Shown here piece after piece: positions 1,936 to 6,504 of a DNA stretch of 64,000 bases. Under the pieces are notes generated by a model. The model did no database searches, was not told where the DNA came from, and was given only the letters and a program-made list of their open reading frames with translations. The translations under genes and the position numbers were made by a program. The stretch is from Deltaproteobacteria bacterium (GTDB taxonomy: Bacteria; Desulfobacterota; Binatia; UBA9968), in NCBI GenBank assembly GCA_005879605.1, contig VBKE01000004.1, positions 1-64,000 on the forward strand, written 5' to 3'. The stretch's first letter is position 1. Every line of letters begins with the position of its first letter.

Positions 1936-3966
1936 CTACTTAGAGACCTGATCGAGCACGATATCGACGTTTTTCGAGCCAACATCGACGGGATTTTTTT
2001 TATATTCGCCGGTCAGGTCTCCGGGCTGACGCGTGGTCGGATTGCCGTCCTTGTCGAGGCGGACGGTGATCGTCACTTTGCCCGAGAAAGGTCTTCCTTG
2101 CATCATGACGTTCTCCGCGCTGAGGGAGTAGGAGAGCGGAAAAACCGGCCGATCGATTTTCTTTACAGCGAGCGGCGGACCGACAGCCGCTCCTGCGGAA
2201 CGAGCAATAATAAAGAGAGCAGCTTGGCTATCAATATTTGCCTTTAACTTTGGATCGAGCGTAATCTTTCCGGTTATCTGGTCGGAGTCGTTGGTCGCGG
2301 ATGACGCAGTTTGCTGCGCGGGTCGTCCTTTCTGACCGGCCTCCGGAATCTCCGCTAAGACCTTTTCAATCTCGCCTCTTTCCTGACCGGCTGGCATGAT
2401 CTGAAGGAGTTTCTCCAGCACCGGTCTGGCGGCGGCGTAGTCCTGTTTCGCTTGGTAGAGCGTCATGCCCTTACCCCAAAGTGCCATGGGCATATTAGGC
2501 GCTACCGAAAGAGCTTTATCGAAAGCCATCAGTGCACCGTCGGCGTGGCCCGCTTGAACGAGTATGAAGCCCATGTAGGCATGCGCTTCGGGTTGATTCG
2601 GATCTGCAGCAAGTACATTCTTGAACGCTTCGATCGCTTTGGGCCAGTCTTGTTTTGCAAAGGCGGCCTTTCCTTGTTGAAGTTGCGAGGAAGCCTCACT
2701 CCCGCTAGTTCCTGTACCGGTAAGAAAATCGCCCGTGACGGTATCCTGCTCTGAACTGCGCGGGCGCAACGATTTCGTCAGAGCAATACCGAGGACTAGA
2801 CCGAAAATCAGTAAAAAAGCGCCGCCGGCAACAAGCTGCCATCCGCGCGAGCTCCCGCCTTGCCCGCCTGCGGGCGTAGCCGATCGGGAAGGCGATTTTC
2901 TTTTTTCCACAGCTTTGACCGGAGGTGTTTTCTGAGATAACTCATCCATTTGTTGTAAGACCGTAGCGGCTTTGAGTTCGATGTCCTGACGCAATCCCGT
3001 GTAGTCGGTCTCGGAAAGTTTGCCTGCCTGATAATCGAATTCGAGTTCTCTCAGGTCAGCGTACAATCGAGCTCGCTCTTGGAGCAATTGAGATGCGGGG
3101 GTGGAGTCTTCGAGATCCAATGCCACCGTATCGGTCATCGTGGCTTCATTGCGCACTCGCGCCAGCAAAGCTGAATCGATGGGCTTGGCTTCAGGCTTGC
3201 CTTTGTTCGTGGACCACCGGCGCATGAATAATATTCCGAGCAGGAGCCCGGCAATCAAAACCACAAACGGTACGACCCAAACCAAGAGACTGAATCCCGA
3301 TTTTTCCGGCTTCAGGAGGACCCATTCGCCGTACTTGGAGACGAAATAGTTTTTGATCTCTTGCGGTGTCTTACCCTCGCGAAGTTGGTCGCGAACCACC
3401 CCGCGCATTTGCTGCGCCATCTCGGACGGGGAGTCGGCGACGGAAAGGTTTTGACAGACGACGCAGCGAAGCTCCGTCGCGATGGCTCGGGTTTGTTCCT
3501 CCAGGTCAGGCGCCGGGGCCGCGAAGATCGGTTTCCCGAGGACAAGCAGCCACGCGATAATTAGTCCTAATGCGATGGTCTTTTGATAGTGGCGACGCAG
3601 GCAATGTGCTGTCGTTCTGGCACCAGGCGATAAGGAAAAGTCAGTGAGCCTTCCGCCCGCGGTTAGGTTTTCTGCCCCCTCTCCCTGGAAAGACCGTATC
3701 GTAGTAATTGAGGACGTAGAAGCGCGAGCAGAAGTTTCCCCCTTTGGAAAAGGGGGATTGAGGGGGATTTTTTCGGGGATGTGAAACCGTGGGCGACTGC
3801 GAAAATCTCCCCTAGCCCCTCTTTTCCAAAGAGGAGAAATCAATTCTCTGCCATCGACGGGAGACAATTCAGGTGAGCGTGACGGGCTCTCATTCAAAAG
3901 GACACGGAGTCGCTGTCGGATGCGTCGTTTAAGAAGCAGCAGGTTTTGTCGAAACAGCATTAGCAT
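1936..3966 (-). CDS. ccmH: cytochrome c maturation protein CcmH fused to a CcmI-type TPR domain (start uncertain)
   Basis: The core is a CcmH domain after a signal-like hydrophobic segment (TIALGLIIAWLLVLGKPIFA). It carries the thiol pair RCVVCQ, which reduces and presents the apocytochrome c haem-binding cysteines. Next come a transmembrane segment, a cytoplasmic stretch, a second transmembrane segment (VAGGAFLLIFGLVLGIAL), TPR repeats and the C-terminal CcmI domain ending KNVDIVLDQVSK. A CcmH-CcmI fusion is known from other bacteria. The start is a problem: no ATG, GTG or TTG is in frame close to the signal segment, where only a CTG at 3600 fits. The frame stays open upstream through a palindromic repeat to ATG codons at 3966 and 3960, just after the ccmG stop. 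I give the ATG at 3966; the repeat may have displaced the original start. It is the last gene of the ccm operon. Confidence 0.85.
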   Translation of the reverse strand: MLMLFRQNLLLLKRRIRQRLRVLLNESPSRSPELSPVDGRELISPLWKRGARGDFRSRPRFHIPEKIPLNPPFPKGETSARASTSSITTIRSFQGEGAENLTAGGRLTDFSLSPGARTTAHCLRRHYQKTIALGLIIAWLLVLGKPIFAAPAPDLEEQTRAIATELRCVVCQNLSVADSPSEMAQQMRGVVRDQLREGKTPQEIKNYFVSKYGEWVLLKPEKSGFSLLVWVVPFVVLIAGLLLGILFMRRWSTNKGKPEAKPIDSALLARVRNEATMTDTVALDLEDSTPASQLLQERARLYADLRELEFDYQAGKLSETDYTGLRQDIELKAATVLQQMDELSQKTPPVKAVEKRKSPSRSATPAGGQGGSSRGWQLVAGGAFLLIFGLVLGIALTKSLRPRSSEQDTVTGDFLTGTGTSGSEASSQLQQGKAAFAKQDWPKAIEAFKNVLAADPNQPEAHAYMGFILVQAGHADGALMAFDKALSVAPNMPMALWGKGMTLYQAKQDYAAARPVLEKLLQIMPAGQERGEIEKVLAEIPEAGQKGRPAQQTASSATNDSDQITGKITLDPKLKANIDSQAALFIIARSAGAAVGPPLAVKKIDRPVFPLSYSLSAENVMMQGRPFSGKVTITVRLDKDGNPTTRQPGDLTGEYKKNPVDVGSKNVDIVLDQVSK
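3735..3839. repeat. inverted pair of about 37-nt palindromic repeats inside the 5' part of ccmH
   Basis: The left unit (3735-3772) begins TTTCCCCCTTTGGAAAAGGG. The right unit (3802-3839) is its imperfect inverse, ending TTTTCCAAAGAGGAGAAA, with about 29 bases between them. Each unit is itself partly palindromic. In translation it gives the peptide patterns PLWKRGARGD and NPPFPKGE, which I know as signs of dispersed repeats in many environmental bacterial genomes. It is probably a MITE- or REP-like element that landed between ccmG and the conserved part of ccmH without closing the reading frame. Confidence 0.7.
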
Positions 3967-3974
3967 GTTTTGTC

Positions 3975-4541
3975 TCAATGGATCGACTGATAGTCGCCTT
4001 TTCCTTCCTGCGCGCTCACAATGCCCTTTAGAGCTTCCTCTAGTTTTGCCGCGGCGACCTGGGCCTTGATCCCGCCAACGTGCTTGTACGTAATGCGGCC
4101 CTGGGGGTCGATGAAAAAGCTCTCGGGAATGCCCCAGACGCCGAAATCGACGGCCATTTTTCCAGACGCGTCGGTGCCGTTGGGGTACGTGATGCCGAAT
4201 TCCTCGAGAAAGGCACGCGAGTCCTTTTCCGTGTCTTGCAGCGCGACGCCGAGAAAGATCATGTTTTTGTCTTTGACCTTTTGCCATCCGACTTCCAAAT
4301 CTCTCGCTTCCGCGCGGCAGGGTGGGCACCAGGAAGCCCAGAAGTTCAGAAATACCGCTTTGCCGCGTAAATCGTTGAGCGTGATCTTCCGCCCGTCAAA
4401 GAGAGTCACGGCGAACGGCGATGCCGGTTTGGCGAGCAACGGTGACTTGATGTAGCGTGAGTCGCGAGTAAAACCGTAAGCCAGCAGCCAAAGAAAGGGC
4501 GCAATGATGAGAATCGTTAGGATGAGACGGCGCCAAGCCAT
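3975..4541 (-). CDS. ccmG: CcmG/DsbE thiol:disulfide oxidoreductase of cytochrome c maturation
   Basis: This is a 188-residue membrane-anchored thioredoxin. An N-terminal transmembrane anchor (about residues 5-22) is followed by a periplasmic thioredoxin fold with WCPPC at residues 71-75 and the cis-proline region WGIPESFFID. CcmG passes electrons from CcdA or DsbD to keep the haem-attachment cysteines of apocytochrome c reduced, working with CcmH. The start ATG lies one base after the ccmF stop, so the two are probably translationally coupled. Length and domain order are normal for the family. Confidence 0.93.
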   Translation of the reverse strand: MAWRRLILTILIIAPFLWLLAYGFTRDSRYIKSPLLAKPASPFAVTLFDGRKITLNDLRGKAVFLNFWASWCPPCRAEARDLEVGWQKVKDKNMIFLGVALQDTEKDSRAFLEEFGITYPNGTDASGKMAVDFGVWGIPESFFIDPQGRITYKHVGGIKAQVAAAKLEEALKGIVSAQEGKGDYQSIH

Positions 4542-4542
4542 T

Positions 4543-6504
4543 TCATGTTTCCTGCGGGGATATTTTTCCCAGCGGGGAGATCGAGATCAGCGTCCCCAAA
4601 ATGATGACGAAACCGCCGATCCAGATCCAGATCACCAAAGGACGAACCAGCACCTTGAGCGTCGCCTGGTTCTTGTCCAGATCGCTGAATCCTGAAAGGA
4701 TGAGATAGAGATCATCGCTGATGGTGCTTCGGTGGACCGCCCGCCCCACCGGTGATTGCTGGGTTGGGAAAAATTTAAGAGCGGGAGATAATACGCCCAC
4801 TTCATCGCCGCCGTTAAAAACTCTGAATGCGCCCTCGACGCGAAAGTGAGTGGGCTGCTGCGCCCCCTTGAGACCTTCGAATTGAACGAGATAATGGCCA
4901 ATCGCCAAACGTTCCTTCAGGCCAAGTGTTGCTTCACGCTCGAGGCTGTATGACATGGAACCCGCAATCCCCATGATAATCAGCACCACCCCGAGATGGA
5001 CGACGAGTCCGCCGTAGCGGCGCTGGTTGCGACGCGCCAGAGTGATTAACCCGCCCAGGATGCCTTCGCCGGCGATGCGGCGACGGGCACGCAAGGCCAA
5101 GGTGGTGTCGTAGATAATCGTCAGGACCACGAAGGACAGCAGGGTAAAACCGAGGAGCGGCAAAAAGTCGCGAACCTTCCACCCGAACAAAATCCCGGAA
5201 ATGACCAGCGACCCGGCCGCGGGCCAGAGAAAGTTGCGTTTGAAATTATCCCATGACGCTTTGCGCCACGCGATGATGGGCCCGACACCCATGAGAAAGA
5301 CCAATAAGAGAAAGAGCGGCACGGTGACCGAATTAAAATAGGGGGCGCCGACACTCACCTGGACGCCGGCCACCGCTTCCGAGAGTAACGGGAAGATCGT
5401 GCCGAGAAAAATAGTGAACAACGCGGAGACCAGAACGATGTTGTTCAAGAGAAATGCCGACTCGCGGCTCACCATCGAATCGAGTTCCGGCTGTCCTTTG
5501 AGTTGGTCGGAGCGATAGGCGAGCAAACCGAATGAACACAGCAGAACCAAGGAGAGAAAAGCCAGAAAGACACCGCCCACCGGTCCGGAGGAAAAGGCAT
5601 GGATGGAAGAAAGAATTCCAGAGCGAGTTAAAAAAGTGCCGAAGATGGTCAGGCTGAAGGCGATTATGATTAGCGAGAGGTTCCAAACCTTGAGCATGCG
5701 ACGGCGCTCTTGCACTTGCACGGAGTGGAGAAACGCGGTCGCCGGCAGCCAAGGCATAAACGCGGCGTTTTCCACCGGATCCCAGGCCCAGTAACCGCCC
5801 CAACCCAGGACATGATAAGACCACCAGGCGCCGACGAGATTGCCCATGGTTAGAAAAAACCATGCGGTAATGGTCCAGCGGCGCGTGGTGACGATCCACG
5901 CTTCATCCAGTTTTCCCTTGATCAGGGCGGCCATGGCGAAAGCGTAGGGAACCGTGAGCCCGACGAAACCCGTATACAAGAGCGGCGGATGGGTCATCAT
6001 GTTCGCGTCTTCCAGCAAGGGGTTCAGGCCGCGACCATCCACGGGTACGGGGAAAATTGTTTCAAAGGGATTCGAGACGAAACTGACCACGCCGAGAAAA
6101 AAGGCCGAGACGATTGAAAAGATCATCAGCACCCACGGCATCAGCTCGCGGTGCCGGTCGCGATAGATCCACGCGACGATCCAGGAAAAGATAATCAGCA
6201 GCCACTCCCATAAAAGCAGCGAGCCTTCCAAGGCGCCCCATAAGCCCGTGATCCGGTAATAGACCGGGGTCGCGCGGGTGGTATTGAAGGCGACATACTT
6301 GATGGAAAAATCGGTTGTTACCAAACCGTAGATCAATGCCGACGCGGCCAAGGTGACGAGAACGAACTGTCCCAAAATAGCTAGCCGAGTGAATGCAAAA
6401 TATCGATCATCGTCGCTGCGCGAGCCGATGATCGGAATGATGACCCCCAAGAGCGCCAGCAAAAGGGCCAGGAGGATGCTGGTATGGCCGATAAGTGAGG
6501 TCAC
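4543..6504 (-). CDS. ccmF: cytochrome c haem lyase subunit CcmF
   Basis: The 653-residue polytopic membrane protein has the tryptophan-rich haem-handling motif WWSYHVLGWGGYWAWDP at about residues 230-245. It also has the periplasmic loop and C-terminal transmembrane segments typical of CcmF. CcmF receives haem from holo-CcmE and, with CcmH, attaches it to the CxxCH motif of apocytochromes. The start is a GTG at 6504 that overlaps the ccmE stop (GTGA), which indicates translational coupling. Length is normal for CcmF. Confidence 0.95.
   Translation of the reverse strand: MTSLIGHTSILLALLLALLGVIIPIIGSRSDDDRYFAFTRLAILGQFVLVTLAASALIYGLVTTDFSIKYVAFNTTRATPVYYRITGLWGALEGSLLLWEWLLIIFSWIVAWIYRDRHRELMPWVLMIFSIVSAFFLGVVSFVSNPFETIFPVPVDGRGLNPLLEDANMMTHPPLLYTGFVGLTVPYAFAMAALIKGKLDEAWIVTTRRWTITAWFFLTMGNLVGAWWSYHVLGWGGYWAWDPVENAAFMPWLPATAFLHSVQVQERRRMLKVWNLSLIIIAFSLTIFGTFLTRSGILSSIHAFSSGPVGGVFLAFLSLVLLCSFGLLAYRSDQLKGQPELDSMVSRESAFLLNNIVLVSALFTIFLGTIFPLLSEAVAGVQVSVGAPYFNSVTVPLFLLLVFLMGVGPIIAWRKASWDNFKRNFLWPAAGSLVISGILFGWKVRDFLPLLGFTLLSFVVLTIIYDTTLALRARRRIAGEGILGGLITLARRNQRRYGGLVVHLGVVLIIMGIAGSMSYSLEREATLGLKERLAIGHYLVQFEGLKGAQQPTHFRVEGAFRVFNGGDEVGVLSPALKFFPTQQSPVGRAVHRSTISDDLYLILSGFSDLDKNQATLKVLVRPLVIWIWIGGFVIILGTLISISPLGKISPQET

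Follow-up and report, generated by a model that had tools for sequence, protein, structure and literature searches.

The DNA analysed here, referred to below as the window, comes from an uncultured bacterium, is 64,000 nucleotides long and carries on its minus strand a ccm locus with the gene order ccmF-ccmG-ccmH(-ccmI). The assignment of ccmH relies on a match to PF03918 (E 9e-35), on an LRCxxC motif and on the position of the gene downstream of ccmF-ccmG, CcmF_C and ccmG (AhpC-TSA/DsbE) adjoining it. The ccmH frame is open over 819 codons, from within ccmG down to position 1936, and the matches to the CcmH, TPR and Ig_CycH domains cover residues 145-680 of the ORF without any stop codon. The distance from the ccmG stop to the CxxC motif is 509 bp, and the frame of this junction stays open in only 1.1% of 1000 dinucleotide shuffles (P 0.011). 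The features of the locus are collected in Table 1. Beside the operon, a frameshifted integron integrase occupies positions 522-1614 of the same strand; its portion at 763-1614 matches TIGR02249 with 298.9 bits (cut-off 265) and the remainder lies in another frame at 522-908 (model 223-315).

Table 1. Features of the ccmG-ccmH region, in window coordinates
Feature	Position	Strand	Basis or remark
ccmG (DsbE/ResA-like thioredoxin)	3975..4541	-	TGA stop 3977-3975
ccmH-ccmI fusion ORF (CcmH, TPR, Ig_CycH domains)	1936..3966	-	Pfam domains
Proposed ccmH start ATG, +9 from ccmG stop	3964..3966	-	usual start position in relatives
Second ccmH ATG, +15 from ccmG stop	3960-3958	-	frame scan
Pre-sequence, 122 codons in frame, 5' of CTG 3600	3601..3966	-	21 K/R, 10 D/E
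Core palindromic (REPIN/MITE-like) repeat, imperfect, ~105 bp, predicted translation ISPLWKRGARGDFRSRPRFHIPEKIPLNPPFPKGET	3735..3839	-	fold, genome matches
Extended element common to copies such as L002 and L211	about 3701..3841		sequence similarity
CTG, alternative start, in frame	3598..3600	-	candidate of the initial annotation
Signal-peptide h- and c-region IALGLIIAWLLVLGKPIFA	3520..3576	-	hydropathy; putative cleavage between IFA and AP, by eye
CVVC (CxxC) motif of CcmH	3454..3465	-	PF03918

The palindrome in the 5' part of ccmH has arms of 33 nt (3739-3771 and 3802-3834) that are 79% complementary and separated by a 30-nt spacer, and the RNA of the ccmH strand folds at -45.2 kcal/mol (z -3.98), none of 200 shuffles folding as well. 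The initial annotation had claimed that inverted repeats at 3735-3839 keep the ccmH frame open, which is borne out by these arms and by the long open frame around them. The element slightly exceeds those limits, since several copies in the genomes G000 and G001 share up to about 35 bp of additional similarity on one side, and the similarity to the L211 copy reaches 3883. The flanks 3590-3738 and 3835-3980 gave no second copy in the window's genome at E < 0.4, but the later comparison with sister copies shows that similarity does extend to about 3701, inside the first of these flanks.

A frame scan placed six standard start codons near the ccmG stop: TTG 3978, which overlaps this stop, ATG 3966, ATG 3960, TTG 3897, TTG 3867 and TTG 3843. 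The last of them is the final standard start ahead of the signal peptide, no ATG, GTG or TTG being found at the window locus between the repeat and the signal peptide; the earlier statement that the frame offers only TTGs up to the repeat and ATGs just after ccmG is thus confirmed. ATG 3966 is preceded by a weak SD-like sequence, CCATTGAGA (-2.7 kcal/mol, spacing 6), TTG 3843 by a match of -2.6 kcal/mol with spacing 3, and upstream of CTG 3600 no SD-like match was found (0.2 kcal/mol). From ATG 3966 to CTG 3600 the frame encodes 122 residues, and the signal sequence would be internal in the extended form of CcmH (residues 131-149), with a hydropathy maximum of 2.21 at residue 131. The ATG pair is flanked by two 13-nt near-copies (92% identical, 24 bp apart, at 3938-3974), whose offset of eight codons would be frame-preserving if they arose by duplication.

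To place this arrangement among relatives, the ccmG-ccmH junction was compared in 74 loci where it was measurable (24 from Binatia, 50 from other lineages, mostly Rokubacteria); 11 of 66 contig loci judged to be duplicate contigs (L039-L049) and five loci without a ccmG match were left out. The relatives matched by CcmH are MAGs, mostly Candidatus Binatia or Deltaproteobacteria. Of the 23 other Binatia loci, 20 have an in-frame ATG, GTG or TTG between -3 and +23 relative to the ccmG stop (21 of 24 with the window), the exceptions being L013, L015 and L017, and in L014 this ccmG-adjacent start is a TTG only. The junction is short in 17 of these 23 loci, with the CxxC motif 109-164 bp past ccmG, so that an extended ccmH without the repeat, an outcome that would have refuted the initial annotation, is not the rule. 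In the genome with the closest CcmH (G024, 78% identity over a partial match), the start ATG overlaps the stop of ccmG, with the signal peptide directly after it. Among the six longer Binatia junctions, two hold dispersed repeats of another kind. The insert of G020 is a different dispersed repeat with at least 42 matches in its genome (its own place included; 40 of 85 candidates scored) and that of G030 another one with at least 68 (40 of 480 candidates scored), both in frame, and the junction therefore hosts three different repeat families in three genomes.

Across the whole sample, the CxxC motif lies at most 179 bp past ccmG in 54 of the 74 loci, and the 20 longer junctions (at least 180 bp from ccmG to CxxC) were treated as expanded. 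Seventeen of them are open from +26 onward, where dinucleotide shuffles would give 8.4 (P 5e-6); 16 of the 20 combine the open frame with an in-frame start within -27 to +25. When one locus was retained per look-alike group, the groups being drawn by eye, 13 of 16 were open against 6.2 expected (P 6e-5); the result was 12 of 16 with L015 counted as closed (P 7e-4), 12 of 15 without the window's locus (P 6e-4), and 5 of 7 against 1.3 for the Binatia alone (P 1e-3). Two points count against translation across the junction: four expanded junctions (L013, L015, L017, L066) lack a frame that runs open from a start beside ccmG, and the open Rokubacteria junctions are mostly GC-rich, where open frames come easily. 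As a control, the ccmF-ccmG junction was considered in the 25 loci that have ccmF and ccmG. The distance to the WCxPC motif exceeds 240 bp in ten of them. In four of these expanded junctions (L012, L016, L023, L032) the ccmG frame is closed before it reaches ccmF, and ccmG starts after the expansion; the other six are open, which indicates that expanded junctions can be open ahead of genes other than ccmH as well. Six Rokubacteria loci (L056, L079, L083, L084, L087, L091) have ccmG-ccmH junctions of 397-578 bp that are open in the ccmH frame, and some of the long Rokubacteria junctions encode repeated peptides such as GNPGRVPPSP.

The 105-bp core of the repeat has 29 matches at E<=1e-3 in the window's genome, where the 30 loci fetched correspond to 23 distinct elements, and matches were found in 13 of the 35 genomes of the order, all within one family (f1). 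Full-length copies consist of two hairpin units facing each other, and this inverted arrangement, together with the dispersal, recalls REP doublets and REPINs. Unlike these, the Binatia repeat has a GTAG/CTAC tag within 10 bp of just 26 of 412 inner hairpins (both strands counted), so that the tag is not usual in it. Mobilisation by a RAYT was considered and rejected: Y1_Tnp genes were matched in 34 of the 35 genomes, and the flanks fetched around the five of G000, the window's genome, were without the repeat (best E 2.1; L133 clipped by a contig end), again unlike a REPIN with a linked RAYT. Terminal inverted repeats and a length of about 100-200 bp are shared with MITEs; unlike a MITE, the repeat showed no target-site duplication in 26 full-length copies, for which the flank match averaged 2.15 against 2.10 in shuffled flanks (sd 0.24), the ends of the element being uncertain. 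A known RNA element was likewise rejected, as no Rfam match was obtained at E <= 0.1 in 3400-4700. Over repeats of at least 60 bp, 242 of 612 frames are open (39.5%), which we used as the chance level.

The neighbourhoods of the copies were then classified for 151 distinct elements, according to whether a frame is open through the repeat with no ATG, GTG or TTG between repeat and h-region (class A), open with a start after the repeat (B), blocked with a start after it (C), blocked with a start inside it (R), or neither (D). A signal-like h-region ORF lies within 45 codons downstream of 30 of these copies (A 14, B 4, C 10, R 1, D 1). Among the h-region ORFs that have no start after the repeat, 14 of 16 are open through it, against 39.5% by chance (P 1e-4), and 12 of 14 remain so without L229, a shadow ORF, and the ambiguous L169 (P 5e-4). 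With 0.6 taken as the probability that a frame is open, the two values rise to P 0.018 and P 0.04, which counts against the pattern. In the other two repeat families, family B (21 copies; A 2, B 2, C 5, D 1) and family C (24 copies; A 2, B 3, C 2), the n-region pattern is weak, class A including the ccmH case in each.

Removing L229 and L169 from class A and adding ccmH, L190, L228, L234 and L237 from other scans gives 17 exported genes whose start must fall in or before the repeat; nine of them also have an in-frame ATG, GTG or TTG inside the repeat, where their starts could be. Sixteen have Pfam support, the seventeenth (L212) being cut by a contig end and without a Pfam match, and the encoded proteins include CcmH, COX2, DUF5329 (twice), NMT1-like and SBP_bac receptors, a trypsin-like protease, an AhpC/TSA protein and a TPM-domain protein. 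For 21 other exported neighbours the start lies in or after the repeat or the frame is blocked, and an upstream start is not needed. Among 48 neighbours with a Pfam match that were not classed as exported, none needs a start before the repeat, L320 relying on a TTG. In this table, whose classes were drawn partly by hand, the contrast of 17 and 21 exported with 0 and 48 not-exported genes gives Fisher 7e-8; the value is 2e-10 when only the Pfam-supported exported genes are taken (16 and 8), and 3e-6 when three doubtful rows are removed and one is counted against.

The composition of the table was as follows. Of 84 long ORFs, 70 were scanned with Pfam, 48 with a match being placed in the not-exported class and seven in the exported class; 13 had no match, of which 12 were excluded and one (L176 minus) was retained in the exported class on visual judgement. 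Two mid-gene insertions (L219, L327) were excluded, together with L229 plus (class A, no Pfam match), L107 minus (C) and L205 plus (D, with a MobA-like start by eye). L169, whose repeat ends in ATG, and L202, blocked with a GTG inside the repeat, were grouped with the 21 exported rows, eight of which have a Pfam match and 12 of which were unscanned, L176 being without match. The not-exported class includes the membrane proteins L188, L191, L294 and L326 as well as L297 (NMT1-like, with no evident signal). A comparison of CoxB (L125, G000:C357) with repeat-free orthologs was tried and set aside, its relatives sharing at most 48% identity.

The DUF5329 genes allow the repeat to be followed between genomes. 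In G009, G020 and G023 it lies in frame ahead of the h-region, the 400 bp upstream of the DUF5329 orthologs or homologs of nine other genomes gave no repeat, and several of these genes start at an ATG 24-36 codons ahead of the mature part. The three repeat-bearing genes remain open between an upstream ATG and the mature part, whose dS is 0.65-1.16, which implies that net length changes have been multiples of three, although compensated frameshifts would be missed in sequences aligned as protein. Constraint on the repeat peptide itself was not seen, pN/pS being 3.0, 1.17 and 2.1 in the DUF5329 pairs and 0.77 for L187/L230. At most, the frame would be kept in the repeat segment, and the lack of apparent constraint is consistent with a passive segment that is discarded and argues against the peptide having a function. 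In the three DUF5329 loci (L170, L228 and L329), the repeat DNA is more alike than the synonymous sites of the mature part; this low divergence suggests either conversion between copies or a constraint at the DNA or RNA level.

Given the repeat family, its position, the open frame, the lack of later starts and the repeat-free orthologs of ccmH and DUF5329, ccmH probably starts at ATG 3966 (or 3960), with the repeat translated inside a basic pre-sequence of about 122 residues that is expected to be lost with the signal peptide. A dispersed, non-autonomous palindrome (REPIN/MITE-like) would have inserted downstream of the ccmH start codon, itself adjacent to the ccmG stop, and upstream of the hydrophobic core of the Sec signal peptide, and the insertion would have kept the frame. 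Ribosomes finishing ccmG would then re-initiate at one of the two ATGs and, the frame being kept, read through the repeat. The resulting CcmH would carry the basic pre-sequence ahead of its signal peptide; the internal signal sequence would export the protein while the pre-sequence remained cytoplasmic, and signal peptidase would cut after IFA. Since the pre-sequence would be lost at this cleavage, mature CcmH would be unchanged and the insertion nearly neutral.

Several other explanations could be issued. The repeat could be an untranslated spacer, with ccmH starting near its signal peptide, either at CTG 3600 or at an ATG that an assembly error conceals. The n-region LRRHYQKT read from the CTG would give an ordinary short signal peptide, and the draft of the window's genome comprises 581 contigs and has an estimated contamination of 7.36%. 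Against this stand the lack of an SD-like site at the CTG and the frame open over the whole junction, and neither a spacer, a CTG start nor a hidden ATG predicts that nearly all h-region ORFs without a later start should be open through the repeat. We consider this explanation unlikely, and a CTG start or hidden ATG less likely than an upstream start. Between the two options left by the initial annotation, an extension or an unusual start at CTG 3600, the start position of the relatives and the open-frame statistics thus favour the extension of about 120 residues.

It is quite unlikely that ccmH starts at TTG 3843 (or 3867 or 3897), before the repeat, which would still leave an extension of about 80-100 residues with the repeat: the SD-like match of TTG 3843 is about equal to that of ATG 3966, but ATGs are present at the start position used by the relatives, and TTG starts are rarer. 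Similarly unlikely is a role of the hairpin in RNA control, by processing or translation of the ccm transcript, its own translation being incidental. The strength of the hairpin favours this role, as does the lower divergence of the repeat in the DUF5329 pairs relative to mature-part synonymous sites; the lack of an Rfam match, the dispersal of the repeat beside unrelated genes and the three different families at the same junction argue against it. That the frame is open by chance in a decaying ccmH is hardly credible, since, although the repeat is open in 242 of 612 frames, the stop-free domain matches and the expanded-junction statistics speak against it.

The preferred reading, a translated and tolerated insertion, resembles the palindromic elements of Rickettsia and their Wolbachia counterparts, which two papers describe as dispersed palindromes of about 100-150 bp in frame inside protein-coding genes (PMC10969869, PMC2229807). 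The Binatia repeat is likewise a dispersed palindrome of 100-150 bp. It differs by its host, Binatia and not Rickettsia. In 17 exported genes it lies in frame with no start codon following it, its translation being predicted from sequence. The R. conorii elements carry a CGTC tag at one end, according to PMC3733652; in the Binatia repeat this tag is not usual, CGTC/GACG occurring within 10 bp of only 7 among the 412 inner hairpins, counted on both strands. The position also differs, as the 17 in-frame cases of the Binatia scan precede a signal peptide and two lie mid-gene: one in a UvrD/RecB-like helicase (L219:1001-1044, G001:C127) and, as a single arm, one in a multihaem cytochrome (L327:1001-1035, G021:C577), where the peptide of the second arm, KKGGERGF, was recognised by eye just ahead of the first. 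The helicase insertion recalls the REPs reported inside genes, recB included, in PMC3733652. In-frame fusions of bacterial MITEs (ERIC, YPAL/RU-2 and the 107-bp Correia element) are described in PMC2229807, which also presents Yersinia YPO1552, with a signal peptide partly formed by a MITE, as a proposed new exported protein; the Binatia repeat instead adds, in several genes, to the length of the n-region of an exported protein that is itself conserved. In a literature search with most subscription journals outside its scope, the matches listed included no paper in which palindromic repeats favour signal-peptide n-regions and none with strings of the Binatia repeat.

Taken together, the ccmH locus is best explained as a tolerated insertion of the Rickettsia type with a preference for signal-peptide n-regions, belonging to a pattern of more interest than the single locus. 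The copies in related genomes probably sit before other exported proteins because the n-region stretch is cut off during export. We tentatively propose, as a possibility that we hold with less than even confidence, that Sec signal-peptide n-regions are a standing niche for palindromic mobile repeats, with exported proteins as a reservoir of which ccmH is one instance. The repeat would be tolerated there because this segment tolerates changes in length, favours positive charge, which the repeat would supply in several frames, and is discarded after export. Palindromic repeats inside genes have been described chiefly in Rickettsia and as a possible source of new proteins; such a safe harbour, if true, accounts for how a translated repeat can stay neutral, and if n-regions are a general one, the start sites of some exported proteins would be wrongly annotated.
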